Shown here one piece after another: positions 3 through 16,380 of a stretch of 16,877 nt of DNA. Numbering within the stretch: the first letter of the stretch is position 1; every line of letters starts with the position of its first letter. A model generated the notes under the pieces. The model was not told the origin of the DNA. It searched no databases and worked only from the letters and a program-made list of their open reading frames with translations. Both the position numbers and the translations under genes were made by a program. This DNA comes from an uncultured Bacteroidota bacterium (GTDB taxonomy: Bacteria > Bacteroidota > Bacteroidia > Flavobacteriales > Flavobacteriaceae): contig CAILTC010000169.1 of NCBI GenBank assembly GCA_903837025.1, positions 1 through 16,877 on the forward strand, given 5' to 3'.

Positions 3-50
3 ATTGGGATTATATTTTACTTTGCTTATGGCAAAAAAATAGCGTCTTGA
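3..50 (+). CDS. C-terminal end of a membrane protein, probably a transporter (partial)
   Basis: The window opens inside a rightward gene. One of the three forward frames reads IGIIFYFAYGKKIAS and then a TGA stop at 48-50. A hydrophobic aromatic stretch followed by a short basic tail looks like the last membrane helix and cytoplasmic end of an integral membrane protein. Amino-acid permeases of the APC family often end this way, but 15 residues cannot establish a family. The gene points toward the terminator at 80-127, which fits a gene ending here. The other two frames also stop nearby, so the frame choice is an inference from the plausibility of the peptide. Confidence 0.45.
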   Translation: MGIIFYFAYGKKIAS

Positions 51-79
51 ACAATCCAGAAAAATAACATTATAAATAC

Positions 80-127
80 AAAAAAAGGGATTATAGAGTT
101 TTTAAAAACTTTATAATCCCTTTTTTT
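80..127. terminator. Bidirectional rho-independent terminator
   Basis: A nearly perfect inverted repeat with 24-base arms (80-103 and 104-127). Seven A's lead in, then GGGATTAT, and the mirror image ends in seven T's. The only imperfection is a G-T wobble (96 with 111). Because an A-run lies on one side and a T-run on the other, it can end transcription from both directions: the rightward gene ending at 50 and the leftward gene ending at 141. Confidence 0.9.
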
Positions 128-140
128 ATTTAGGATATTG

Positions 141-368
141 TTACAAATCAAAAACTGACGTCCTTTTTGCTCGAACTAAATCTTTCAATCTAATCCAAAA
201 AGCAAGCGTTAAATAAACACCAAACCACAAACCAGCCGTTACAAAAGTGATGTAAATAAAAAACAAACGCACGCTAGTAACCCGCATTCCTAATTTATCG
301 GCAAGGCGGGAGGAAACATGAAAACCGTGTTTTTCGAAAAAATATTTGAGTTGTATAACTGCTCGCAT
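141..368 (-). CDS. PspC-domain small membrane protein
   Basis: A 75-residue protein if started at the ATG at 366-368; a longer reading from a TTG at 395 adds nine residues and is less likely. The sequence has a basic, soluble N-terminal part with a RLADKLGMRVTSVRLFF segment, then one long hydrophobic stretch (about residues 38-60, FIYITFVTAGLWFGVYLTLA) and a basic tail. This is the pattern of the PspC family, membrane proteins first known from the phage-shock response. In flavobacteria many are short, stand-alone versions with no demonstrated role. The gene lies 97 bases downstream of the DUF2851 gene on the same strand, so co-transcription is possible, and it ends at the terminator at 80-127. 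Function in envelope stress is inferred from the family name only. Confidence 0.75.
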   Translation of the reverse strand: MRAVIQLKYFFEKHGFHVSSRLADKLGMRVTSVRLFFIYITFVTAGLWFGVYLTLAFWIRLKDLVRAKRTSVFDL

Positions 369-465
369 TTTTAGTTTATTTATTGAATTGGCCAATCGTT
401 TATTCAGAAAAACAAATTTACAACATTACAGCATTCACAGACAAACAAATCCTAAAATAACTGAA

Positions 466-1737
466 TTAACTTTTCTTCAATAATACCATTCCGATGCCGC
501 ATTCTAAACACCGGCTTTTGTTGCAATATTCATTTTTGAGTTGCAACAAGGATTGGGATTCAAAAGCATTTTTTGATTTGATTCCGAAAGAAGCGAACTT
601 ATCCATAATCGCATTTTTTTCTGGAGCGACTTCGTTTAATAACCGAATCAAATCTTCGGAAGTTTCTTTCCCCTGACTTTTGGCGTAAGCAAATTGAAGC
701 GGCATTATGGTATTTATAATAATCAAATCGATAAATGATTTAGAAAGTTGTTTCTTCTTTTTCGGGCTTTCTTTATCAAATTGATAATGATTTTGCCAAT
801 AATTCGATGCAGAAACACCGAAGGTTTCATAAATATTCGCAACTGAATTTGCCTCAATAATTTTCGAAAACAGATTTTGTTGAACATGGAATAAATAGGC
901 CAATTGCGACAATCGAATCGTCGGGAAATTATCGGGCCGATGTTTGAAAAACTGAACAGCTTCGACCGCTTTTTTCTCTAATTGGTATTTATGCAGCAAA
1001 TAAAAATAGCGAAATTTCAAATCCTTAAAATAATTATCTTCTTTTTCAACGTCTAATAATCCGGCGTTTCCTAGGAGCAAAGCTTCGAGGTTTTCGACTT
1101 CGAAACTTTCTTTTCTAATGATCGAAAACGGGATGGATTGAGCAATTTTCAAAAATATTTCACCATTGGTATTCAGTCCAAAATTTTTGGCCAAAAGGCA
1201 AAATAAGACCGCTTCCCAGTCGGAATTGGTTTCTTGCAAAAGCGCATAAATAGGTTTTGATTTTCTTTCTAAACGTTCGAAAAACAAACGTTCTTGCCAG
1301 TTTTTCATCGTGAATTCATTGATATCTTTTAATTGCTTTTCGCAAAAAATCCAAGATTTGGGAGTCATCAGCGTTTGATAATCTTCGATTGTAGCTTTTT
1401 CAACATAATTCTTAAGTTCTAAAACAGGAATTTCGGTGTTGTTTTTTCGGAATATTTCGGTATCATGTTCCCAAACTACGTGAAGAATTACGTTTTCATA
1501 AGACGCATCTCTTTCGTGATGATGCACATACCAATCGGAGGATTTGAGATGAATTTCGACATTTCCAGCCCACTTTTGATTCCAAATAATAATTTGAGCA
1601 TTGAAAAAATCGGGGCCTGCAAGTTCTAAATAGTGCCCAACAGTAACGATGGTGATTTCCTCTCCGTTTGAAGTTTCCAAATTCAGGGCGTTGAACTTCT
1701 TAAATTTCCAAAGATAATGGAGGAATTCTTCTTTCAT
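466..1737 (-). CDS. DUF2851 family protein
   Basis: A 423-residue protein from the ATG at 1735-1737. The N-terminal third carries the features I associate with DUF2851 proteins of Bacteroidota: a LELAGPDFFNAQI segment, GNVEIHLKSSDW, then a histidine-rich HHHERDASYENVILHVVWEHD stretch. The C-terminal end contains four cysteines in a CNKSRCLECGIG arrangement (CxxxxCxxC), which could hold a metal ion. There is no signal peptide or membrane segment, so it should be cytoplasmic. The length is normal for the family. The biochemical role is not known; the acidic and histidine residues near the N-terminus have led to speculation about nuclease-like activity, which nothing here proves. It sits between the exonuclease gene (119 bases upstream) and the PspC gene. 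Confidence 0.85.
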   Translation of the reverse strand: MKEEFLHYLWKFKKFNALNLETSNGEEITIVTVGHYLELAGPDFFNAQIIIWNQKWAGNVEIHLKSSDWYVHHHERDASYENVILHVVWEHDTEIFRKNNTEIPVLELKNYVEKATIEDYQTLMTPKSWIFCEKQLKDINEFTMKNWQERLFFERLERKSKPIYALLQETNSDWEAVLFCLLAKNFGLNTNGEIFLKIAQSIPFSIIRKESFEVENLEALLLGNAGLLDVEKEDNYFKDLKFRYFYLLHKYQLEKKAVEAVQFFKHRPDNFPTIRLSQLAYLFHVQQNLFSKIIEANSVANIYETFGVSASNYWQNHYQFDKESPKKKKQLSKSFIDLIIINTIMPLQFAYAKSQGKETSEDLIRLLNEVAPEKNAIMDKFASFGIKSKNAFESQSLLQLKNEYCNKSRCLECGIGMVLLKKS

Positions 1738-4503: not shown

Positions 4504-5163
4504 ATGTTACTCCATAATTTCTCCGAATTTCTATTAGAAACCGGCACTGACGAAGCTGGTCGTGGCTGTCTTGCTGGCCCAGTTACGGCAGCGGCAGTAA
4601 TTCTTTCGCAGGATTTTGAAAATATAATATTGAATGACAGCAAGCAATTATCCGAAAAAACCAGAGAAAAGCTCCGACCCATTATCGAAAGCCAAGCCAT
4701 TACATTTGCTGTAACGCATTTGCATCCGAAAGAAATTGACGAAATCAATATCCTGAACGCTTCGATGAAAGCAATGCAAGAATCGGTTTTAAAATTAAAC
4801 GTAACACCCGAATTTATAATTGTTGATGGCAACCGAAAGCTCAATGCAAAATTAGGATTGAAAAGTACTTTTGGTAAACGCTTTTCGAAAACTGAAATCG
4901 AAATCTTAAAATCGATTCCCAACCAAAGCATTATAAAAGGCGATTCGAAGTATTTGAGTATTGCCGCGGCTTCGGTGCTGGCAAAAACGTATCGTGATGA
5001 TTATATGAACCAGATTCACGAGGAATTCCCCATGTACAATTGGAAGAAAAACAAAGGTTATCCGACGAAAGAACATCGGGAAGCGATACGCAAATATGGC
5101 GTGACGAAATACCACCGAATGACTTTTCGCTTATTGCCCGAACAATTGAAACTGGAGATTTAG
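4504..5163 (+). CDS. rnhB: Ribonuclease HII
   Basis: RNase HII cuts the RNA strand of RNA-DNA hybrids and starts removal of single ribonucleotides in DNA. The 219-residue protein is full length. It shows the GTDEAGRG motif near the N-terminus (catalytic D16, E17), [13 protein letters not shown] (residues 43-55), [10 protein letters not shown] (82-91), VDG (D108), KGD plus [10 protein letters not shown] (145-165, with D165), and NKGYPTKEH (183-191) with the conserved tyrosine. The ATG at 4504 gives the usual short lead before the first motif. It is the last core gene before the accessory region. Its last 96 bases (5068-5163) are repeated, with mostly synonymous changes, at 6407-6502, and its last 27 bases again at 11361-11387. 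The gene itself appears intact. Confidence 0.97.
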
Positions 5164-5208
5164 ATTGGTTTACTAGATTTCAATCTTGGTGAAATAGCTG
5201 ATTTTTCG
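5069..5208 (+). repeat. rnhB 3'-end repeat, copy A (within intact gene)
   Basis: This segment covers the last 95 bases of rnhB and about 45 bases beyond its stop. The same segment recurs 1339 bases downstream at 6408-6547. In the coding part 11 of 96 bases differ. Beyond the stop the match is weaker but clear (CAATCTTGGTGAAATAGCT against CAATCTTGACGAAATCGCT). Copy A lies in the intact gene, so it is the functional 3' end. Confidence 0.85.
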
Positions 5209-5587: not shown

Positions 5588-6262
5588 ATGCACAAAAATT
5601 TAAAAAAAACAGTGTGGCTTTTTATATTACTTACCTTACCTGTAAGATTCTACGCTCAAAAAGATGTGACACAGTTCCTTGGCATTCCTGTAGATGGGAG
5701 CAAATCTGAAATGATACAGAAATTAAAAGATAAAGGATTTACAATTAGCCCTAATAAAAAAGATGCTTTAGTTGGTGAATTCAATGGAACAGATGTTAAT
5801 GTAGTTATTGTAACAAACAATAATAAGGTATGCCGAATTATGGTTTCTGATGCCAATACAAAGAATAAAACGGATATTAGAATAAGCTTCAACAAACTCG
5901 TGCAACAATTTCAGAATAACAAAAAGTATCTTCCTCTGCCAGAATCCACTATATCAAAATACAATATACCAGAAGACGAGGACATCTCATATGAAATATC
6001 TGTAAAGAGTAAACGTTACGAAGCTCTTTTTTATCAAAAGACATCAGATTATGACTCTTTAGCGATTGAAATGAGCAATCTTTACATAAAAGAGGTGCGT
6101 AATGATTCAGATAAGGAACGTCTTACTGTGATAACGAAAAAAATGATTGATGATAGTCTAAAGAAATCCGTTTGGTTTATGATTAGTGAGAGTTATGGAA
6201 AATATTTTATCTCAATATACTATGACAACGAATATAACAGAGCAAATGGAGAAGGACTTTAA
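5588..6262 (+). CDS. Secreted protein of unknown function
   Basis: A 224-residue protein that I cannot place in a characterised family. The first 23 residues form a clear signal peptide (basic MHKNLKK start, hydrophobic WLFILLTLP, end at YAQ), so it is exported to the periplasm or outer envelope. There is no lipobox cysteine. The mature part begins with QFLGIPVDGSKSEMIQKLKDKGF, a motif I recognise from small hypothetical exported proteins of Bacteroidota, followed by alternating beta-strand-like segments. No catalytic motif is visible. It stands alone, flanked by two copies of the rnhB 3' end, and has its own candidate promoter, so it looks like a passenger gene that arrived with the inserted segment. 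Confidence 0.7.
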   Translation: MHKNLKKTVWLFILLTLPVRFYAQKDVTQFLGIPVDGSKSEMIQKLKDKGFTISPNKKDALVGEFNGTDVNVVIVTNNNKVCRIMVSDANTKNKTDIRISFNKLVQQFQNNKKYLPLPESTISKYNIPEDEDISYEISVKSKRYEALFYQKTSDYDSLAIEMSNLYIKEVRNDSDKERLTVITKKMIDDSLKKSVWFMISESYGKYFISIYYDNEYNRANGEGL

Positions 6263-6340: not shown

Positions 6341-6406
6341 TTCCCGAACGCCCCAGCTATGCGGTAAATATCTCTTCCTCGCTAGCGCGGTTTTGCAAAT
6401 CCAACC
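6341..6406. repeat. REP-like element at the junction with the rnhB tail
   Basis: The gap 6263-6406 between the secreted-protein gene and the rnhB remnant is relatively GC-rich at its right end. It contains CCCCAGCTATGCGG and CTCGCTAGCGCGGTTTTGCAAATCC (6379-6400), including the palindrome GCTAGC (6381-6386). From memory this resembles dispersed REP/IS200-associated palindromes common in Flavobacterium intergenic DNA. It ends right where the second rnhB 3' end begins, so it may mark the breakpoint. The rest of the gap shows no gene. Confidence 0.35.
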
Positions 6407-6502
6407 CAAGAACATCGGGAAGCAATCAGAAAATATGGCGTGACAAAATACCACCGAATGACATTTCGGTTGTTGCCAGAACAATTGAAACTGGAGATTT
6501 AA
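6407..6502 (+). pseudogene. rnhB: rnhB 3'-end remnant (copy B)
   Basis: These 32 codons read [20 protein letters not shown], then [11 protein letters not shown] and a TAA stop. Apart from the first residue this equals residues 189-219 of the intact RNase HII. The DNA differs at 11 of 96 positions, and all but the first difference are synonymous or in the stop codon. Nothing upstream continues the gene. It is therefore a broken 3' end of a once functional, slightly diverged rnhB allele. Similarity to the intact copy continues about 45 bases past the stop. The convergent PPTase gene ends 49 bases further on. Confidence 0.9.
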
Positions 6503-6551
6503 GCTGTTTTCCTAAATTACAATCTTGACGAAATCGCTTTTTTTGGTCAAT

Positions 6552-7187
6552 TTATAAATAGTTTAAACTAAATTCTCCTTCATAACTACTAGTTGTCGCA
6601 ACCGAAAACCAGTACAAATCTTCTATAATCTGTGTTTCTAGTCTCAAAGAAATACCTTCGATCGTAACTAAATCTTCGATAACTTCAAAAGTGCTAAATT
6701 CGAGAAAAGCGCCATAACCCAAAGCTTTGGCAACCGCTTCTTTTCGTGTCCAAAATTTTAAAAAAAGAGATTCCGGCGATGTGTTATTCGAAATAACATC
6801 CCATTCTTTTGATGTAAAATAGTCTTTATAGAGCGTATAATCTATTTGCTTTTCTATTTCAACATCAATCCCAATGATGCCGTTTTTTACAAATCCCAAA
6901 AACACATTTTCCTCGGAATAGGAAATGCTAAAATCGAATGAAGCATCAAAAAAAGGTTTGCCATGTTTGTTGTATTTTAAATGCGCTAAACGATACTTAT
7001 TTTCATTTAATTGATGCTCCATTAGCACTTTCTCTAGGAGCAATAATCCTTTAATTCTGCCTTGTTGTTTTTGCACGGAATTGTAACTTCTTATTTTATG
7101 CTGAAGAAAATTCGGCAATGTAGAAATCTTACAAATAATTTCGTCTTTAGGCATACCAATGTGGTTCCTCTTTATATATATTTGCAT
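6552..7187 (-). CDS. Sfp-type 4'-phosphopantetheinyl transferase
   Basis: This enzyme moves the phosphopantetheine arm of coenzyme A onto the serine of carrier proteins. I chose the ATG at 7185-7187 (211 residues); an upstream TTG at 7208 would add seven. The family motifs are visible: GIDVE (106-110, metal-binding D108 and E110) and FWTRKEAVAKA (145-155, with E150), preceded by a KHGKPFF segment (75-80) and SISYSEE (88-93), where the conserved Ser-His is replaced by Ser-Tyr. The length and the conserved histidine-free SxS region suit the small Sfp/Gsp branch. It is divergent from the NRPS gene with only 83 bases between starts, so the natural substrate is probably the carrier domain of that protein (Ser554). 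Whether it also serves fatty-acid ACP cannot be told. Confidence 0.92.
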   Translation of the reverse strand: MQIYIKRNHIGMPKDEIICKISTLPNFLQHKIRSYNSVQKQQGRIKGLLLLEKVLMEHQLNENKYRLAHLKYNKHGKPFFDASFDFSISYSEENVFLGFVKNGIIGIDVEIEKQIDYTLYKDYFTSKEWDVISNNTSPESLFLKFWTRKEAVAKALGYGAFLEFSTFEVIEDLVTIEGISLRLETQIIEDLYWFSVATTSSYEGEFSLNYL

Positions 7188-7205
7188 AGAAACAGTTTTT
7201 AAGAA

Positions 7206-7213
7206 CAAATATA
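7206..7213 (-). promoter_or_regulatory. Candidate -7 box for the PPTase gene
   Basis: Read on the minus strand this is TATATTTG, an exact match to the Bacteroidota -7 consensus TAnnTTTG. It lies 18 bases upstream of the PPTase ATG, so the transcript would have a very short leader. No clear -33 TTG is seen at the usual distance. The 83-base divergent gap must also hold the NRPS promoter, for which I see no convincing box. Confidence 0.35.
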
Positions 7214-7270
7214 TCGCTTTCTCTTAAACCTTTTTTGTTATTAAAATTCTAAATAAAAAAAGATCATTTA

Positions 7271-10200
7271 ATGGAGGAATTAAGCATAATAGTAGGCGAA
7301 AAACGTCAAGATTTTTTCATTGAAGAAAGTTTAATATCTGTTTTTAAAACGACAACTTCTCATTTCCCAGAGAAGATTTCTCTCTATTATAAAAACCAAT
7401 CTATTACATATCAAGAACTAGATAATTGGTCGGATGCGATTGCGTATCAACTACAATCAAAAGGATTAAAAAGCAGTGATGCCTGCCTTATTTGGTGGAA
7501 TCGTGGTCTTGAACTCCATGTTGCTATTTTGGCCATTTTAAAATGTGGCGCAACTTATGTACCGCTAGATTTCGAAATGCCCGAAGAACGTGTTTTGTTG
7601 GTCATGGAGGATATAAAAGCGCCGTTTATTATTACCTCGCATCCTTTTAGTCATTCGTGTACCGTCATAAACGACTTAAATTATACCCCAGAAGATACGA
7701 GTAAATTTATAGCTGTAAATTTAGATCCAGACACGAATGCTTATGTTTTATTTACCTCTGGAACCACCGGAAAACCAAAAGGAATTCCGATTACCAATCG
7801 AAATATATGCCATTTTATTCGATCTGAAAATTCCGTTCTTACTGTAAATTCATCGGATAAAGTATATCAAGGATTCTCGGTTTCGTTTGATATGTGGTGC
7901 GAGGAAACTTGGATCAGCTATCTCGTTGGCGCTTCCTTATGGATTGCCGATAGCGTTACTTCAAAATCGATTGATGAGTTAAGCACTATTTTATTCGAAA
8001 ATGAAATTACCGTTTTGCATGCCGTTCCTAGTCTTTTGGCGGTGATGGAAACTATCGATTTAACAAAGTTACGTTTGATTAATGCAGGTGGCGAAGCCTG
8101 TACTCCGCTAGTTTTGAATAAATGGTCGAATGACAATCGGGAATTTTATAATTCGTATGGTCCTACCGAAACTACCGTGAGTGCTTCGATTGCGAAACTA
8201 ACAAAAGGCGAAATTATAACCATTGGCAAACCCCTTCCTAATTATGGTTTGGCTATTGTAGATGAAAACAGGAATCCAATTTTGATAGGAAATCACGGAG
8301 AATTAGTGATTTCAGGAATTGGCGTAAGCAAAGGATATTTGAATTTAGAAACACTTACCAAAGAAAAATTTATTCCCAAAAACGACTCCTTAAATGCTTT
8401 GCCAGGCGCTATAATTTACAGAACTGGCGATGCCGCTTATATGGATGAACATAAAAACATCCATTTTATTGGAAGAATTGACAGCCAAGTAAAACTAAGA
8501 GGTTTCCGAATCGAATTAGAAGAAATCGAAAGCCTATTAAACGACCAAGAAAATGTGCTACAAGCCGCTGTAGCACTCAAAAAAGATTCGAATGACCAAG
8601 AACAATTAACGGCTTATGTTGTTCTAAAAAAGGATACATTCTTTGTTTTTAGTGAATCCAAGTTAAAAGAAAACCTACAACAGCAATTACCCTCCTACAT
8701 GATTCCGCTAGTTATCATGGTATTAGAGGAATTACCCCGATTAGCAAGCGGAAAAATAGACCGAAAACTATTGCCAATTCCTGAAAATTATTTGGCACAA
8801 AATACCGCTCCAATACACATTCTCGAAACCGATGACATGGGTACCAAAGCGATAAAAATATTGCATAAAATCTTCATAAAAGAAGACATTACCCTAGAAA
8901 ATGATTTCTTTACCGATCTAAGCGGGCATTCGTTATTGGCGGGTTCTTTTGTTAGTTTGATGCGTTCCGAAGCCAAAGTGAGTCACGCTTCGTTAAAAGA
9001 TATTTATCAGTACCGACCGCTTTCGGCATTGGTCAGCAAATGGGAATCTACCGTTAAAGGAGAGTCCAAAGAACCTCGAGTTTTTAATACCGTTTTGAAC
9101 AGTCATTATTATTTATGCTGGTTTGCCCAAAGTGTAGCCTTAATTTTGATTTTCGGATTCTTGGCAACCGAGATTTTTATTCCTTATTTAGCGTATTATT
9201 TTACTCTTTTAAATACCGAAAATTATTTAGAATCCGCAATAAGTGCCCTTCTAATGTTTTGCCTAATTCCTCCCGTTTTCATCGGATTAGGAATTGCCGT
9301 TAAATGGATCGTAATCGGAAAATACAAAGAAGGAAAATACCCTCTCTGGGGAACGTACTATTTTAGATGGTGGTTCGTTAAAACTTTTAATAAAATCGTT
9401 CCCACCCAATTTTTCAACGGAACCCCTTTATATCCAGCCTATTTAAAAATGCTCGGCGTTAAGATAAAAGCAGATGCACAATTGAGTTCCTTTACCATGG
9501 GAGCCGAAGATTTAATAACCATAAAAAAAGATGTAAGCATCAGTTCGAATGTTATTTTGGACAATGCCGTAATCGAAGAAGGCTTTTTTATCCTATCCCG
9601 AATTACCATCGGAAATCACGGTTATGTGGGCAGTAGCTCTATCCTAGAAGGAAATACGACTATCGAAGATTGGGGCGAATTGCAAGATTTAAGCCTTTTG
9701 CAAAAAGACAAAACAATTGGTTATGCCCAAATCTGGAAAGGGAGTCCATCGCAATTGATAAAAACCAGAAAAGAAGAGGAACTTTTATACCCGTTGAAAA
9801 TTTCAAAAAGAAGACTATTTGCCTATAAAACAACTTATTCGCTGCTATTGTTACTCTTTCCGTTATTTATTCTAGTTCCTTTGATCCCCACAATAATAGC
9901 TATTTCTGAACTTGACAATGCCGCTGGCTATTTTGAATTCTATTACCTTTGGATAACACCGTTATTAAGCATCATCTATTTATTTTTGTTTGCTTCCTTT
10001 AATGTGATTTTGAGTAGATTACTTCAAAAAGGCATTCAACCCGGAGAATATCCGGTATATGGTCGGTTTTATGTCAAAAAATGGGTAGTCGAACAATTAA
10101 ATTCACTTTCGTTAATTGTCTTACACCCTATGTATGCGTCGGTATTTATCTCTAGCTATTTCAAGGCTTTAGGCGCAAAAATCGGAAAGGACACCGAGAT

Positions 10201-11215
10201 TTCGACAGCAAGCAACGTGACCCATCCCTTACTCGAAATAGGGACACGTTCCTTCATTGCCGATGCGGTAACTCTTGGCGAATCGGATGTAAGAGGGCAA
10301 CGGTTATTTTTAGAAAAAACAGTAATCGAAAACAATAGTTTCGTAGGCAATAGTGCCTTGATTCCGCAGGGATACCAGCTTTCCAGCAATATGCTAATAG
10401 GCGTATTGAGCGTTCCTCCTTCCGATGAACAGTTGACTACAGAATCCTTCAATGATTGGTTTGGATCTCCGGCAATTGGAATTCCGAGGCGTCAAGAAAG
10501 CGAATTATTCGATGAAACTCAAACTTTTTCTCCGTCTAAAAAAACATATTATACCAGAGCCACAATAGAATTTATTCGGATTATTCTCCCGCAAACCGTA
10601 ATCTTAATTTGCAGTATTTACTTCATAGCCTACACCAGCGAATTGATGGCAACAAAATCGGTTGGAATGATTCTGGGATTACTTCCTTTTTACTATCTGT
10701 TTTTTATGGGGATTCCGGTGCTATTAATTCCTGTTTTGATGAAGTGGATTTTAATTGGCAAATACAAAGAAAGCAGCCACCCTATGTGGAGTTTACAAGT
10801 TTGGAAAACAGAAATGATTACCTCAACGTATGAGGCTTTGTGCATTCCTTTTCTATTAGAATATCTAAAAGGAACGCCTTGGCTCCCTGTTTTTTTACGG
10901 TTATTTGGTGTCAAAATAGGAACAAAAGTAATGCTGAATACTTCCGATTTTACAGAATTCGATATGGTAACCATTGGCAATGACTGTGCTTTGAACGAAG
11001 ATTGCGGCCCTCAAACGCATTTATTCGAAGATCGGGTGATGAAAATAGGGAAAGTTGAAATTGGCAATCGAGTAACCATCGGCAGCCGAAGCATCATTTT
11101 GTACAATACCAAAATAGAAGACGACGTAAACATTGGCGATTTATCACTCGTGATGAAAGGAGAGATTATTCAAAAAGAAACCCAATGGGTGGGAAGCCCG
11201 ATAAGTGAGAAATAA
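7271..11215 (+). CDS. Pls-like membrane NRPS: A-PCP plus three membrane/beta-helix units
   Basis: A 1314-residue single-module nonribosomal peptide synthetase. The adenylation domain (about 25-510) has FTSGTTGKPKG (161-171), FDMWCEETW (206-214), YGPTE (296-300), YRTGD (383-387), GRIDSQVKLRGFRIELEEIE and SGKIDRK with catalytic K495. The carrier domain has DLSGHSLLAG with Ser554 as the phosphopantetheine site. After it come three repeats of two membrane helices and a soluble unit: helices near 616-640 and 660-685, 856-878 and 893-914, 1104-1124 and 1134-1163; soluble parts rich in hexapeptide-like turns (ITIGNHGYVG, LEIGTRSFIA, VEIGNRVTIG). No HHxxxDG condensation motif or thioesterase is visible. 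This is the layout and length of epsilon-poly-lysine synthetase (Pls, about 1319 residues), which polymerises one amino acid without a classical condensation domain. The product is not known; a homopoly(amino acid) is inferred. Confidence 0.88.
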   Translation: MEELSIIVGEKRQDFFIEESLISVFKTTTSHFPEKISLYYKNQSITYQELDNWSDAIAYQLQSKGLKSSDACLIWWNRGLELHVAILAILKCGATYVPLDFEMPEERVLLVMEDIKAPFIITSHPFSHSCTVINDLNYTPEDTSKFIAVNLDPDTNAYVLFTSGTTGKPKGIPITNRNICHFIRSENSVLTVNSSDKVYQGFSVSFDMWCEETWISYLVGASLWIADSVTSKSIDELSTILFENEITVLHAVPSLLAVMETIDLTKLRLINAGGEACTPLVLNKWSNDNREFYNSYGPTETTVSASIAKLTKGEIITIGKPLPNYGLAIVDENRNPILIGNHGELVISGIGVSKGYLNLETLTKEKFIPKNDSLNALPGAIIYRTGDAAYMDEHKNIHFIGRIDSQVKLRGFRIELEEIESLLNDQENVLQAAVALKKDSNDQEQLTAYVVLKKDTFFVFSESKLKENLQQQLPSYMIPLVIMVLEELPRLASGKIDRKLLPIPENYLAQNTAPIHILETDDMGTKAIKILHKIFIKEDITLENDFFTDLSGHSLLAGSFVSLMRSEAKVSHASLKDIYQYRPLSALVSKWESTVKGESKEPRVFNTVLNSHYYLCWFAQSVALILIFGFLATEIFIPYLAYYFTLLNTENYLESAISALLMFCLIPPVFIGLGIAVKWIVIGKYKEGKYPLWGTYYFRWWFVKTFNKIVPTQFFNGTPLYPAYLKMLGVKIKADAQLSSFTMGAEDLITIKKDVSISSNVILDNAVIEEGFFILSRITIGNHGYVGSSSILEGNTTIEDWGELQDLSLLQKDKTIGYAQIWKGSPSQLIKTRKEEELLYPLKISKRRLFAYKTTYSLLLLLFPLFILVPLIPTIIAISELDNAAGYFEFYYLWITPLLSIIYLFLFASFNVILSRLLQKGIQPGEYPVYGRFYVKKWVVEQLNSLSLIVLHPMYASVFISSYFKALGAKIGKDTEISTASNVTHPLLEIGTRSFIADAVTLGESDVRGQRLFLEKTVIENNSFVGNSALIPQGYQLSSNMLIGVLSVPPSDEQLTTESFNDWFGSPAIGIPRRQESELFDETQTFSPSKKTYYTRATIEFIRIILPQTVILICSIYFIAYTSELMATKSVGMILGLLPFYYLFFMGIPVLLIPVLMKWILIGKYKESSHPMWSLQVWKTEMITSTYEALCIPFLLEYLKGTPWLPVFLRLFGVKIGTKVMLNTSDFTEFDMVTIGNDCALNEDCGPQTHLFEDRVMKIGKVEIGNRVTIGSRSIILYNTKIEDDVNIGDLSLVMKGEIIQKETQWVGSPISEK

Positions 11216-11230
11216 AATGATTTTAAAAGT

Positions 11231-11362
11231 CTAATTCGTTTGAAAATCTGCACCAAAAAGCTTCGTGAAATGTTTTAGAATTTTTGCTTTCACTTCGGCT
11301 TCATCCACTTTTTCAACTCCAAGTTCTACGTTTAAAGAAGTTACTGCTTTAGCCCGAATACC
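11231..11362 (-). pseudogene. lipB: lipB 3' fragment (octanoyltransferase C-terminus)
   Basis: Read on the minus strand, 43 codons and a TAG stop encode GIRAKAVTSLNVELG, then VEKVDEAEVKAKILKHFTKL and FGADFQTN. GIR-x-KAVTSLN is the well-conserved segment after the active-site cysteine of LipB (lipoyl/octanoyl transferase), and the remainder fits the C-terminal helix. The residue before GIR would be the catalytic Cys in PCGIR; here the codon is TCT (Ser) and the match ends, so the gene is cut exactly before its active site. No upstream part exists to the right; the sequence becomes an rnhB tail instead. The fragment cannot be functional, so an intact lipB should lie elsewhere in the genome. Confidence 0.8.
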
Positions 11363-11387
11363 AGAAAAGTTGAAACTGAAGATTTAG
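11361..11387 (+). pseudogene. rnhB: rnhB 3'-tail remnant (copy C)
   Basis: Nine codons, CCA GAA AAG TTG AAA CTG AAG ATT TAG, read PEKLKLKI and stop. They match the end of RNase HII (PEQLKLEI) at 23 of 27 bases. It begins where the lipB fragment ends, with two shared bases. The two substitutions change Q to K and E to K, both common at the tail. It is short, but together with copies A and B it is unlikely to be chance. Confidence 0.65.
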
Positions 11388-11769: not shown

Positions 11770-12011
11770 ATGGCATCAATTAAACTAATTTTAAGAACAC
11801 ACCAGGTAGACCAAACAGGACACAGCCCTTTGTATATCCGAATTATAAAAGATAGAAAAACGAAATTTATCACTGCTGGAGTGAAACTCAAAGAGAACGA
11901 GTGGGATGAAGTAAAACAGAAAGTAAAAAAGAACCATTCCAATAGTGCCAGAATGAATGCTGCATTATCACAAAAAATTGCAGATGCTGAAGGTCAGGTT
12001 GGAAAATCCGG
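11770..12011 (+). pseudogene. Tyrosine recombinase (integrase) N-terminal fragment, cut by the IS
   Basis: About 80 codons from the ATG at 11770 encode MASIKLILRTHQVDQTGHSP, LYIRIIKDRKTKFITAGVKL and KENEWDEVKQKVKKNHSNSA, ending near ADAEGQV. This is the N-terminal arm-binding domain typical of Bacteroidota phage-type tyrosine integrases (strand pattern, then ITAGVKLKENEWD). The SAM-like core-binding domain and the catalytic R-H-R-Y domain are missing because the IS21 element begins at about 12012; the frame runs 9 codons into it and stops at 12037-12039. I find no recognisable continuation after the right end of the element, so the 3' part has been lost or diverged. The protein cannot recombine DNA. 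Confidence 0.85.
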
Positions 12012-12017
12012 TCAAAT

Positions 12018-12096
12018 TGACCACCACTTTCCAGTTTAAATTGACCACCATTTCCGGAGCAAACTGACCACCACTTTCCAGTTTAAATTGACCACC
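12018..12096 (+). repeat. Left-end terminal repeats of the IS21 element
   Basis: TGACCACC occurs four times (12018, 12042, 12065, 12089), at steps of 24, 23 and 24 bases. The longer units alternate: units 1 and 3 read TGACCACCACTTTCCAGTTT. IS21-type transposases bind several such sites at each end. Confidence 0.9.
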
Positions 12097-12180
12097 TAAT
12101 TTTGGGGGTAAATTGGCAATAAAAAACTACTCACTTTTTTCATGTTGTTAGAACCATAAATTCGTTAAAAAAAACGGATT

Positions 12181-13728
12181 ATGGCAAACAAAATAACAGA
12201 CATGAGTAAAATTAGAAAAGCAATTAAATTCTATTGTAACGGAAAAAGTAAGTTGTTTATAAGTAAGTACTTATCGCTTTCCAGAAATACCGTAAAGAAG
12301 TATATTTCTTTATTTGAAACACTAGGACTAAGTTTTGAAGCAATTAATGAAAAGACAGATGCTGAACTAGAACTTTTGTTTTCACATACAACTGTGGAAT
12401 CAATTAGTCCCAAACTGCAAATTCTTTATGATTTTTTCCCTAAAATGGAACGAGAACTGAAAAAAGTTGGCGTTACCATACAGCACATGTGGGAACAATA
12501 TATTGCCCTAAACCCCGATGGCTACAAGAGTTCACAATTTTGTTATCATTATAAAATATGGGGTAAACGAGTCAATCCAGTAATGCACATGAATCACAAA
12601 GCGGGTGATAAAATGTATGTGGATTATGCTGGAAAAACACTCTCTGTTGTTGATAAAGACACAGGAGAAATCAAAGAAGTACAGTTTTTTGTAGCCATAT
12701 TAGGAGCGAGTCAATACACGTATGCCGAAGCCTCCATGAGCCAACAAAAAGAAGATTTTGTTACTTCTGTAGAGAATGCCATGCGTTTTTTTGATGGTAC
12801 TCCTGCTGCAATTGTTCCAGATAATTTAAAATCTGCAGTAATAAAAAGCAGTCGTTTTGAACCAACAATTAATGAAACCTTAGCAGATTTAGCCGAACAC
12901 TATGAAACTACAATCTTACCTGCTAGAGCTTATAAACCAAGAGACAAGTCATTAGTTGAAGGAGCTGTCAAGATTTTGTACAGAAGGATTTATGTAAATT
13001 TAAAAGAAACTAAATTCTTTTCTTTGGAAGAATTAAATCAGCAGATATGGGATTTACTTGATTCTCATAATGATAGAAAACTCACTGCACGTCCTTATTC
13101 TCGCTTGGAATTATTTTTGGAAGATGAGCAGCAAAAACTACGTCCACTGCCACAAGAACGTTTTGAAATCAAATACCAATGCTTTGCAACAGTAATGCAG
13201 AACGGACATGTTCAATTAAGTCAGGATAAAAACTATTACAGTGTTCCCTATCAATATGTGAAGAAAAAAGCCAAACTATTGTACACTAAATCAACCGTAG
13301 AGATTTATTATAAATACAATCGAATAGCAGTCCATACGAGAAATTACAAACCTTATGTCTATACCACAACACCTGAGCATTTAGCAAGCACACATCAATT
13401 TGTAGCCCAATGGAGTGCTTCTCGCTTCATTGATTGGGCCAATAGCATTGATGAGTCAGTAGGAGATTATATCCTGCAGATAATCGAAAGTAGAAACCAT
13501 CCTGAGCAAGCCTATAAAAGTTGTTTGGGAATACTAAACTTTGAGAAAAAGGTTGGAAAACAGCGATTAATAAATGCTTGTAAACGGGCTCTTGATTTTA
13601 AGATATACAATTTTAAGACCATCCAGAATATTTTAGAAAACAACTTAGACCATGTTGATTTTGAACAAGAATCCGAGCAAGAACTCCCAAATCACAGTAA
13701 CATTAGAGGTAAACAGTATTATAACTAA
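12181..13728 (+). CDS. istA: IS21 family transposase IstA
   Basis: A 515-residue DDE transposase. The N-terminus has a helix-turn-helix (about 20-45, IRKAIKFYCNGKSKLFISKY then LSLSRNTVKKYI). The catalytic core shows D148 (KMYVDYAGKTL), D214 (IVPDNLKSAV) and E260 (SLVEGAVKILYRRIYVNL), with the usual spacing. The C-terminal part contains the YYSVPYQYV segment, seen in the small beta-barrel of IstA proteins. The length is normal and no frameshift is visible, so it should be active. The stop at 13726-13728 is followed 17 bases later by istB, with which it acts: IstB prepares the target and IstA cuts and joins the DNA. Confidence 0.95.
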   Translation: MANKITDMSKIRKAIKFYCNGKSKLFISKYLSLSRNTVKKYISLFETLGLSFEAINEKTDAELELLFSHTTVESISPKLQILYDFFPKMERELKKVGVTIQHMWEQYIALNPDGYKSSQFCYHYKIWGKRVNPVMHMNHKAGDKMYVDYAGKTLSVVDKDTGEIKEVQFFVAILGASQYTYAEASMSQQKEDFVTSVENAMRFFDGTPAAIVPDNLKSAVIKSSRFEPTINETLADLAEHYETTILPARAYKPRDKSLVEGAVKILYRRIYVNLKETKFFSLEELNQQIWDLLDSHNDRKLTARPYSRLELFLEDEQQKLRPLPQERFEIKYQCFATVMQNGHVQLSQDKNYYSVPYQYVKKKAKLLYTKSTVEIYYKYNRIAVHTRNYKPYVYTTTPEHLASTHQFVAQWSASRFIDWANSIDESVGDYILQIIESRNHPEQAYKSCLGILNFEKKVGKQRLINACKRALDFKIYNFKTIQNILENNLDHVDFEQESEQELPNHSNIRGKQYYN

Positions 13729-13745
13729 ATTAAAATCAAATAATT

Positions 13746-14483
13746 ATGAATGAATCAACAGTAACAAAAATGAAACAAATGAAGCTTTATGGAATGCATA
13801 ATGCTTTTAAAACAGCTATTGAAAGCGGAAAAACAGACCATTACACTCTCGACCAATTTGTGTCTATGATTATTGATGCAGAATGGGATGAAAGGCACAA
13901 TCGTCGTATTGAACGAAGTATCAAGAATGCCCGATTCCATTACAAATCCAATATTGAAACTATCAATTTTGACCAAGCCCGTAATCTTGACCGCAACATG
14001 GTACTTCGTCTAGCGGAATGTGAATTTGTAGAAAAAAATGAAAACATTTTAATTACTGGAAGTACAGGTGTAGGTAAAAGTTATTTAGGTACCGCATTAG
14101 GTTACCAGGCCTGCATACAAGGTTATAAAGTAAGTTACTTTAATACTTCGAAGTTGTTTGCTAAATTAAAAATGGCCAAAGCAGATGGTTCTTACTTGCG
14201 AGAACTGGCCAAAATAGAACGGCAAGATGTTATTATTCTTGATGATTTTGGGCTCCAAGCCTTGGATAGCCACAATCGAATTACCCTTTTAGAAATCATC
14301 GAAGACAGGCATAATAATGGTTCTATAATTGTAACCTCACAAATACCAGTTCAAGGGTGGTATGATATAATTGGAGAAAAAACCATAGCTGATGCTATTT
14401 TGGATAGATTAATACATCAATCGCATCGTCTTGAATTAAAAGGGGAATCAATGAGAAAAAAAAGAGGTACTAATAAAGTTTAA
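13746..14483 (+). CDS. istB: IS21 helper ATPase IstB
   Basis: A 245-residue AAA+ ATPase related to DnaC. Walker A is GSTGVGKS (105-112) and Walker B is VIILDDFG with D166 and D167; a sensor-like VTSQIP (198-203) and an arginine-rich C-terminus (RLIHQSHRLELKGESMRKKR) follow. In IS21 transposition IstB forms an ATP-dependent oligomer on target DNA and directs IstA. The length is normal and the gene is intact. The start at 13746 is the first ATG after the istA stop, and the pair is probably one transcript. Confidence 0.95.
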   Translation: MNESTVTKMKQMKLYGMHNAFKTAIESGKTDHYTLDQFVSMIIDAEWDERHNRRIERSIKNARFHYKSNIETINFDQARNLDRNMVLRLAECEFVEKNENILITGSTGVGKSYLGTALGYQACIQGYKVSYFNTSKLFAKLKMAKADGSYLRELAKIERQDVIILDDFGLQALDSHNRITLLEIIEDRHNNGSIIVTSQIPVQGWYDIIGEKTIADAILDRLIHQSHRLELKGESMRKKRGTNKV

Positions 14484-14545
14484 TATTTTTAGGTATATTT
14501 GAATAATTAACAGATGAAAAAAAGTAGTTTTTTATGAAAAATTGG

Positions 14546-14625
14546 GGTGGTCATTTTACTCCGGAATTAGGTGGTCAGTTTGAATTGGAATCAGGTGGTC
14601 ACTTTAAATTGGAATTGGGTGGTCA
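14546..14625 (-). repeat. Right-end terminal repeats of the IS21 element
   Basis: GGTGGTCA, the complement of the left-end TGACCACC, occurs four times (14546, 14570, 14594, 14618) at exact 24-base steps. The number of sites therefore equals that on the left end. Confidence 0.9.
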
Positions 14626-14635
14626 ATATCACCGG

Positions 14636-14893
14636 AATATGCAGTTATAAGCCAGCAGTGCTCAGATCTACTAGGTGAAATTACGTCGTGAAATAATTTA
14701 ACCGTCATATTAATATTGCTATCGATGTCAAAGTTATAAAAAACTGCGACTACTAGTATTTATTATGGAATGATTTTTTAAAATCGTCTAGTGTAGCATA
14801 TGATTATTATTTTTGATGTCGTAAAACTTTCTATTATGCTTCAAATTTAACTGAGAAACAAGTAAACAGATTGCTGATAATTAGATTTTGAAT
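14636..14893. other. Non-coding stretch between the IS and the AbiE locus
   Basis: About 260 AT-rich bases. All frames are broken by stops. The short peptide read directly across the right IS junction (PEYAVISQQCSDLLGEITS) does not look like an integrase to me, so I do not see the missing part of the interrupted recombinase here. It may be degenerate mobile DNA. Confidence 0.5.
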
Positions 14894-15745
14894 TTATTCT
14901 ATCTTTAAGTATGAAACTAAGTCATGAAAGTATGTGGACGACCATATATCTAATTGTTGAGGATCTTTTATAAATCGAATTACATCTCTCTTTACATATT
15001 CCATATTTACAGTGTCAATTTTTTGTGATAGCAATTCTTTGAATTCCTTTTCTGAAATTGTTTCCTCTTTCCAGTCGCCGCTATCTTTTGCTCTAGTTAA
15101 GAAATGACTTAGATCAAGTTTAATTCCTTTCTTAATATACCATTCCATGTCGTACCAGTCACGTCCTTTTACATTAGTTCCCCATTTACGGAATAGTAGT
15201 GCATGCATCTTACCAGCAAAGAGATCTGGTAGAGTAAAACACTTAACATAGAAAGAGAAAGGCTGTAAGAGAAGTTTTTCTTCTATTTTAAAATTCAAAG
15301 GGGGTTCTGTATCTACCTCGATCTTGATTTTTATGTTAGCTTTAGTGTCCAGACCAATTTGAGGTATGATAGTTTCCAGTTTTAATTCACTCCATAGGGT
15401 TTCCGATTTTAGGAAAGCTGAATTGATGTTATTCTGCTTCACTTTCTGTTTCTTACTTATACTTACATTCATGCCTAATGCTGCAAATTCATTTACAATT
15501 GCATCTTGGTACTTTTCCAAAGAGAAATCTTGTTCTGCTTGTAGTAAAGAGAAATCAAGGTCTTCGGAGAAACGCTCCAGTTTATGGAATATTCTCAAAG
15601 CTGTACCTCCATAAAATGCTGCTTTGTCAAAAAAACCAGAGCGGTAGAGCCCAGCCAGAGCAATTTCCTGCATAATTTCGCGAAGTGCAGATTGTGCTTC
15701 TTCTTTGTTTTTAGGTTTGTAACTTTCAAGCCATTCTTTTATCAT
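14894..15745 (-). CDS. abiEii: AbiEii toxin, nucleotidyltransferase of a type IV TA system
   Basis: A 283-residue protein if started at the ATG at 15743-15745, which overlaps the antitoxin stop as ATGA; the frame is open further up but this coupling decides the start. It carries the AbiEii/AbiGii nucleotidyltransferase motif GGTALR-x(6)-RFSEDLDF (46-65; D62 and D64 bind metal). The later AGKMHALLFR (177-186) and KGRDWYDMEW (193-202) are the other conserved blocks of the family. AbiEii toxins stop growth, and in AbiE abortive infection they defend against phage; related enzymes add nucleotides to tRNA acceptor ends. No domain is missing. It is the second gene of the pair, downstream of the antitoxin, the usual order. 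Confidence 0.9.
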   Translation of the reverse strand: MIKEWLESYKPKNKEEAQSALREIMQEIALAGLYRSGFFDKAAFYGGTALRIFHKLERFSEDLDFSLLQAEQDFSLEKYQDAIVNEFAALGMNVSISKKQKVKQNNINSAFLKSETLWSELKLETIIPQIGLDTKANIKIKIEVDTEPPLNFKIEEKLLLQPFSFYVKCFTLPDLFAGKMHALLFRKWGTNVKGRDWYDMEWYIKKGIKLDLSHFLTRAKDSGDWKEETISEKEFKELLSQKIDTVNMEYVKRDVIRFIKDPQQLDIWSSTYFHDLVSYLKIE

Positions 15746-16380
15746 AATTTCTCTATCATTTTTATTACTATTTCCAAGCTGTCTTTTTTTGGTGCATCTG
15801 ATAACCAAGAACGCATTTGAGTAGTATCAAAATCTTTTAAATCGGATTGTTCCATTCTTAGATTTTCGAAAACATAATTTTGGGCATTTTTCATGCTTCT
15901 CAGTATAACCCCCGGAGTAGTTACTATTTTATCAGCCAGTGCTTTTTCTGGTGATGCCATAATTACCCTCTGATTCTCCTGAAGTTTTACATTCTTAATT
16001 CCAAAAGCATAATAAGGTAGTGGAAGATAGGAATAACTATATAATCCAATTGAAGTCTGGAAGTCTTTTGAAGGTTTTGTTGTCATCGATGTTACTGTGT
16101 ATACACGTTCTGGAATCAAGCCGTAATGGGATAAGGCGGTCTCCATCGATAAATAACTTGGACCATAAATATGATTGGCAATTAAACTACTTTCAGGCAT
16201 TTGCATATTTACATTTTCCCCGGGAATGTAGATTCCTCTTTTTACAGATTTTATTATTCCTTTGTCTTTCAGTGTTTTAATTTTATCGTTAGGTCGCTTG
16301 TATTGACGCAGTAGGCTGGTCAAAATTTGATGGGTTATTGGCTGTCCTTCAAACGCAGATAATAATTTGCTGAAATCCAT
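15742..16380 (-). CDS. abiEi: AbiEi antitoxin and transcriptional repressor
   Basis: A 212-residue protein from the ATG at 16378-16380. The N-terminal 55 residues form a winged helix (ILTSLLRQYKRPNDKIKTLK then DKGIIKSVKRGIYIP), as in AbiEi-type antitoxins. The C-terminal part has SYLSMETALSHYGLIPERVY and the ASPEKALADKI motif (about 143-153) typical of the family. In type IV systems the antitoxin does not bind the toxin but counteracts it and represses its own promoter through inverted repeats. Just upstream lies a 14-base inverted repeat (16407-16439) that fits an operator. The stop overlaps the toxin start by 4 bases, so translation of the two is coupled. Confidence 0.88.
   Translation of the reverse strand: MDFSKLLSAFEGQPITHQILTSLLRQYKRPNDKIKTLKDKGIIKSVKRGIYIPGENVNMQMPESSLIANHIYGPSYLSMETALSHYGLIPERVYTVTSMTTKPSKDFQTSIGLYSYSYLPLPYYAFGIKNVKLQENQRVIMASPEKALADKIVTTPGVILRSMKNAQNYVFENLRMEQSDLKDFDTTQMRSWLSDAPKKDSLEIVIKMIEKL

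Follow-up and report, generated by a model that had tools for sequence, protein, structure and literature searches.

The locus analyzed here raises the question of what two adjacent, divergent genes of an uncultured flavobacterium make, and how they came to lie where they do. They are located on a stretch of 16,877 nucleotides, hereafter the window (Table 1), which is a single contig of an assembly with 665 contigs, a completeness of 89.4% and a contamination of 4.6%. An earlier note on this DNA had described the genes as a Pls-like polymer synthetase and its phosphopantetheinyl transferase (PPTase), and the ORF list showed both reading frames to be uninterrupted, with coordinates and lengths exactly as reported there. 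We consider it probable that the pair forms a horizontally acquired Pls/PosA-family unit that synthesizes a homopolymer and supplies its own activation. Judged from sequence, it represents a new member of a known, named family, consisting of an enzyme and an activating helper for the synthesis of a probable ornithine polymer.

Table 1. Coordinates of the synthetase unit, its domains and the flanking elements in the window.
Feature	Position	Strand	Basis or remark
rnhB, left chromosomal flank	4504..5163	+	Left of the 224-residue ORF
224-residue ORF, no Pfam match over cut-off	5588-6262		Between the rnhB 3' copies
Second, displaced copy of the rnhB 3' end	6399..6544	+	83.6% identical to 5060-5205
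Sfp-type 4'-phosphopantetheinyl transferase, divergent from pls	6552..7208	-	PF01648; Sfp 1QR0; GIDVE
Second TATATTTG	7177-7184	+	By eye
TATATTTG, TAnnTTTG-like element ahead of PPTase	7206..7213	-	By eye, without chance control
Pls/PosA-type synthetase	7271..11215	+	1314 aa; Pfam, TIGR02353, pocket code, hydropathy
A domain of Pls	residues about 20-505	+	Pfam AMP-binding
Carrier of Pls, Ser554	residues about 530-600	+	SGHS motif
C-terminal polymerization region of Pls	residues 619-1311	+	TIGR02353
C1 repeat, membrane pair plus hexapeptide-like soluble part	9113..9799	+	Hexapep match below cut-off
C2 repeat	9800..10561	+	Hexapep match below cut-off
C3 repeat with QTHLFEDR (H1250, E1253, D1254, R1255)	10562..11212	+	Hexapep 27.3 bits, cut-off 27
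lipB 3' end, separate from intact lipB on another contig	11231..11383	-	Comparison with same-genus loci
Tyrosine integrase N-terminal arm domain, frame ends inside IS21 end	11770..12039	+	PF17293
IS21 element (istA/istB) genes	12181-14483		Pfam/NCBIfam; IS ends 12007-12103, 14538-14636

The family assignment of the synthetase is carried by its C-terminal region, whose score of 616.2 bits exceeds the cut-off of 423.1 for TIGR02353, the curated NCBIfam equivalog-domain model named "Pls/PosA family non-ribosomal peptide synthetase"; the match spans the full length of the profile (2-695 of 695). This search had been proposed in the earlier note, where a missing match would have spoken against the Pls-type architecture; the result instead backs it. 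Toward the N-terminus, the Pfam AMP-binding model covered residues 27-357 (E 9.8e-65) and TIGR01733 scored 357.5 bits on the A domain (cut-off 317.4), while AMP-binding_C and hexapeptide-type repeats were also matched at E <= 0.001. The carrier bears the motif SGHS, and the Pfam PP-binding model scored 15.5 bits on this piece, under its cut-off of 20.8. No condensation, thioesterase, or reductase domain was found in the protein by Pfam at E <= 0.001, and its sequence lacks an HHxxxD motif. Hydropathy revealed six membrane segments arranged in three pairs (613-644/652-684, 849-884/888-919, and 1097-1128/1130-1165), and the three units following the carrier are internal repeats, with C1 being 32% identical to C3 (E 9e-27) and 24% identical to C2 (E 3e-14). 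The hexapeptide model exceeded its cut-off in C3 only and was weak in C1 and C2, and PDB matches of the C-terminal half were hexapeptide transferases and gamma-carbonic-anhydrase-like proteins (best E 3.7e-7). The TIGR02353 match, a single A domain with a carrier, six helices in three pairs, and the lack of condensation and thioesterase domains place the protein in the Pls/PosA family. Since the domain, motif, hydropathy, and repeat results agree, the earlier description of the synthetase is correct, both for what it had reported (an A domain, a carrier with Ser554, and three membrane/soluble repeats) and for what it had reported missing (the condensation motif HHxxxDG and a thioesterase).

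The residues lining the substrate pocket (D207, M208, E211, H250, N271, G273, S295, V303, S304, and K495) form the code DMEHNGSVSK. As a reference, we used a PosA-type protein from an Acinetobacter baumannii strain different from that of the PosA paper (PMC10522769); eight of its residues (D217, M218, E221, H260, N280, T304, V312, and S313) match all eight positions that were checked against that source. Its code, DMEHNGTVSK, shares 9 of 10 residues with the window protein, to which it is 38% identical over 1301 aligned columns. Across code positions 1, 2, 3, 7, and 9 (Asp, Met, Glu, Thr, and Ser in PosA), four of five are identical, and position 7 is Ser (Ser295), not Thr. The pattern DMEHNG[ST]V[ST]K was present in all 120 listed homologues, of 7994 matches, as well as in 82 of 84 further relatives, a set that in part overlaps the first; the other two carry DMESNGSVSK. 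Different codes were read from an Azospirillum relative (DLEDIGSVVK) and a Streptomyces relative (DFECLSAVTK), the latter encoded at a locus that also contains diaminobutyrate transaminase and aspartate kinase genes.

PosA produces delta-poly-L-ornithine of 7-12 units, and its pocket Asp, Glu, Thr, and Ser contact ornithine, with Asp217 and Glu221 being essential and with Thr304 and Ser313 touching the side-chain amine; losing Thr304 costs 33-fold (PMC10522769). Delta-poly-L-ornithine is therefore our best, though conditional, prediction for the window enzyme, and a specific and cheap one in naming both the monomer and the linkage. The A domain would activate L-ornithine, the PPTase would load phosphopantetheine onto Ser554, and the holo-carrier would present the ornithinyl thioester to the membrane-bound polymerization domain of three hexapeptide-type repeats. 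Chain length, export, and biological role, like the substrate and the delta linkage, are predictions for this enzyme, and substrate calls from A-domain codes can be wrong; the ornithine call could err because of the conservative change from Thr to Ser and the overall identity of 38%.

It is nonetheless unlikely that the same mechanism operates here on another basic monomer, such as lysine, 2,4-diaminobutyrate, D-ornithine, or a modified ornithine. The Ser at code position 7 would allow for this, as would the reports that the PosA A domain accepts D-ornithine to within a factor of about two, and lysine weakly, and that arginine is used modestly by a family member whose pocket is unusual (PMC10522769). 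However, the nine residues shared with PosA include Met208, the equivalent of Met218, which was proposed to set substrate chain length and is replaced by Ala in lysine enzymes and by Phe in diaminopropionate/diaminobutyrate enzymes (PMC10522769). With Met rather than Ala at code position 2, polylysine is not the first choice. The cationic monomer anticipated in the earlier note is thus consistent with the pocket, but the likeness it drew to polylysine synthetase does not extend to the pocket, which resembles that of the ornithine enzyme PosA.

How such an enzyme joins monomers was approached through conservation in 209 aligned sequences (the window protein, 4 distant relatives, 4 from phylum-sample genomes, 80 from loci, and 120 listed proteins, some of them duplicates). 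Nineteen positions were checked, chosen from residues invariant in nine divergent proteins plus some others, and 15 were identical in 209/209: D207 and E211 in the pocket, G552, H553, and S554 in the carrier motif, and D998, E1229, Q1248, T1249, H1250, E1253, D1254, R1255, K1258, and Y1278. The remaining four were H952 (206/209), H985 (200/209), D1231 (207/209), and E1298 (208/209 plus one gap). The stretch QTHLFEDR sits in C3 only, with Ala in C1 and Ser in C2 of the window protein at the position of H1250. In hexapeptide acyltransferases, a His serves as the catalytic base. We infer that a single active site with His1250 as the base may perform the condensation, which provides a named candidate for how Pls-type enzymes act without a condensation domain. 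The three C-terminal units were proposed to form one catalytic domain in PMC10522769, which, in the available part of its text, names no catalytic residue in this domain and states that there is no structural information on it.

The neighboring gene is an Sfp-type PPTase, as the earlier note had recognized: its product matched PF01648 (55.4 bits, cut-off 25; E 7e-15) and Sfp (PDB 1QR0; E 5e-7), contains GIDVE as the GxDxE motif, and aligns WTRKE with the W-x-x-KE motif of Sfp. As the NCBIfam AusB model scored 47.4 bits against a cut-off of 225, the protein is not assigned to the AusB equivalog. The TTG start at 7208 probably lies 21 bases ahead of the true one, for which an ATG at 7187 is the better candidate. 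Elements resembling TAnnTTTG, which we take to be the Bacteroidota promoter consensus, lie near this start (Table 1); by eye, CAAATATA, the complement of TATATTTG, was also seen in the corresponding intergenic regions of the related loci L055, L045, and L046 and not of L048. Sigma-70-like promoters were uninformative (17 found, 17.1 expected).

The pairing recurs among relatives. A profile search covered 71 related loci that extend 700 bases or more upstream of Pls; in 17 of them the PPTase gene is divergent and adjacent, and the other 54 gave none next to Pls. Of 9 loci with less upstream sequence, 2 contained a partial copy. Over 81 loci, PPTase is the commonest neighbor family, narrowly (19 against 18 for the next, with many close kin among them), and its position is the same in all fetched loci that have it, with no other placement among 80 loci. 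Within the close clade, it was present at 7/7 distinct loci with enough upstream sequence (the window, L045, L046 with a partial copy, L048, L055, L168, and L169); L047, with about 270 bases upstream, gave no match. Other arrangements occur elsewhere: of four genomes examined from the phylum sample, three have the PPTase next to Pls, either codirectional and downstream (G211) or in convergent orientation (G053 and G075), and none was found within the 18 kb fetched from the fourth (G317), while a Sphingomonas plasmid has the order Pls, PPTase, GNAT acetyltransferase. This recurrence, the constant position, and the alternative arrangements led us to reject a chance neighborhood. The pairing is not obligatory, given the 54 loci without an adjacent copy and a second PF01648 gene in the same assembly, and the comparisons point to a recurrent partnership. 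As the purification of PosA included added Sfp (PMC10522769), a linked PPTase makes sense, and the claim that pls carries its own activating enzyme gains support; a matched PPTase is also available for expression of this Pls.

Genes 3' of Pls vary among relatives. A GNAT acetyltransferase follows directly in 16 of 81 loci, including 14/14 Chitinophaga loci (one representative confirmed by Pfam), and its product might acetylate the polymer, either to protect the producing cell or to end the chain. Mucilaginibacter-type loci carry transglutaminase-like genes (16 loci) and proteasome-type genes (15 loci; the representative just under the Pfam cut-off) downstream of Pls.

The distribution of the synthetase is patchy. 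Since TIGR02353 matches under the cut-off occurred in 56 of 60 genomes at E <= 0.001, only those above it were counted, and in samples that overlap, these were present in 0/36 relatives of the same genus, 1/23 others of the order, 3/298 other genomes of the genus sample, and 4/295 others of the phylum sample. The Pls of a congener, G211, is 49% identical to that of the window. A quick tree of 85 proteins gave the close clade a support of 100, with warnings on long branches and uneven composition. Plasmid carriage was not borne out, as all 2847 matching records of a plasmid collection were under 60% identical, the best (38%) being A. baumannii records, some of which are chromosome-sized. Viral contigs gave no match with patterns that reach close relatives only.

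Furthermore, the unit lies at a site where a gene neighborhood is conserved. The genes rnhB and lipB converge at a distance of 12-1236 bases in 19 of 24 loci from the same genus, an arrangement found in 0/5 loci of other families; in the window, the order is rnhB, the 224-residue ORF, the second rnhB 3' end, PPTase, Pls, the lipB 3' end, the truncated integrase, IS21, and an AbiE pair. The two rnhB 3' copies, identical at 83.6% over 146 bases, flank the 224-residue ORF, a layout resembling that left by a small element entering the end of rnhB. An intact lipB with a different C-terminus is located on a different contig (L156, G000:C380), which, together with the detached lipB end, suggests integration into the 3' end of lipB. 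At L055, whose Pls is 85% identical, one side of the unit borders an intact lipB and the opposite side a decayed copy of the lipB 3' end. Duplicated 3' ends beside an integrase are a trace of site-specific integration into gene ends, and the site may accordingly be an insertion hotspot, although the arrangement could also stem from a misassembly. In other close relatives, inspection placed the unit near a Sua5-like gene (L045, L047, and L168), a prolyl-oligopeptidase-like gene (L046), NADH-dehydrogenase-like genes (L048), or a P-type-ATPase-like gene (L169, where Pls is 88.9% identical over 1232 residues and cut by the contig end). Beyond the unit, the first 113 bases of the L055 contig are a copy, 93% identical, of the right end of the window's IS21 (about 12007-14636), an AbiEi/AbiEii type IV toxin-antitoxin pair occupies 14894-16380 (PADLOC E 1.8e-75 and 3.3e-123), and no RNA element was found in the window at Rfam gathering thresholds.

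Because of the patchy distribution and the insertion site, horizontal spread is the best reading of these comparisons, in line with the accessory location and horizontal acquisition suggested earlier: the genes are sporadic in the genus and lie between genes that are neighbors elsewhere. The same flanks would also suit a decaying or silent passenger of a genomic island that no longer makes a product, a reading compatible with the others: duplicated gene ends, a broken integrase, and IS21 surround the unit, and a third gene found in relatives is missing (see below). Yet both ORFs are intact and the residues that are invariant in relatives are present, and we regard this state as improbable.

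The third gene encodes a secreted protein of 314-321 residues, judged barrel-like by eye, directly 3' of Pls in 6/6 distinct close loci whose contigs continue (L045, L046, L047, L048, L055, and L168). No Pfam cut-off was passed by the three such proteins examined (one weak autotransporter match, E 0.59) and no NCBIfam model matched in four; a protein search listed 41 homologues. Similarity to L055 breaks off at 11225 of the window and is picked up again at 11231, in the lipB end, showing that the barrel gene is missing from the window, and a search of the incomplete assembly, made without a positive control, revealed no copy. Thus, the two-gene system described earlier holds for the window, but close relatives have a three-gene unit; as its third gene is absent, the window copy may be incomplete.

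Among 398 genomes of the genus, 8 matched the barrel family, the window's own genome not among them. Four of the eight contain Pls (G587, G560, G623, and G700) and four do not: G535, with a barrel gene 70% identical and no Pls over E 1e-80, and G425, G436, and G017, with versions 27-30% identical near genes named by inspection as RND efflux-like. These four weaken an exclusive partnership of barrel and Pls, and at G211 no barrel gene lies within 19.5 kb. At L183, L184, and L185, inspection placed distant barrel relatives next to a gene for a DRDQ-rich protein and no more than a few kilobases from TolC/MFP/RND efflux-like genes.

A more far-reaching reading, which we put forward tentatively and think rather doubtful, is that PPTase, Pls, and an outer-membrane barrel form a three-gene cassette that moves among flavobacteria, makes and exports delta-poly-L-ornithine and has inserted at several chromosomal sites, that a single His-Glu-Asp-Arg site, located in the third hexapeptide helix, carries out condensation, and that the window copy has lost the barrel; if true, this would answer where Pls-type enzymes form bonds. 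That the enzyme makes a short conjugate, or moves ornithine to a carrier-bound or lipid acceptor with no free homopolymer, is very improbable: its repeats resemble hexapeptide acyltransferases, a Pls/PosA domain has been reported inside a hybrid lipid-peptide cluster (PMC13291983), and close relatives retain the barrel-like neighbor, but no further biosynthetic gene was recognized in the window by Pfam, NCBIfam, or the ORF list, and PosA alone yields free polymer (PMC10522769).

The family, its occurrence, and its name are known, as it is widely distributed (PMC10522769) and the name Pls/PosA family is already attached to several of the 120 Bacteroidota-type homologues listed; the earlier view of a family best studied in actinomycetes is refined accordingly, in that it is not only actinobacterial. 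Five polymer terms looked for in PMC9248904 are absent from it, and literature searches within an open-licence library brought up no characterized cationic homopoly(amino acid) from Bacteroidota, though the enzymes are annotated there. To family membership, domain order, pocket residues, PPTase linkage, patchy distribution, and insertion site, all read from sequence comparisons, we add two testable points: the C3 histidine, and a unit that moves and may have a barrel partner. Compared with known systems, the PPTase shares PF01648, GIDVE, and W-x-x-KE with Sfp/AusB-type enzymes without reaching the AusB cut-off. Bacteroidota relatives (Mucilaginibacter, Chitinophaga, Flavipsychrobacter, and others) are 53-57% identical and have the same or nearly the same code; their PPTase is often not adjacent, and the Chitinophaga loci carry GNAT downstream instead. 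Pls from Streptomyces albulus (A domain, PDB 7WEW) has A, carrier, and C1/C2/C3 as in the window but Ala, rather than Met, at code position 2 (PMC10522769), and its A-domain match is weaker than that of PosA (205.9 against 333.3 bits). PosA from A. baumannii (PDB 8G95-8G98) has the same domain order, a similar length, and three membrane-plus-soluble units (PMC10522769), and differs from the window enzyme in overall identity and in Thr304, which corresponds to Ser295, while sharing the rest of its code.
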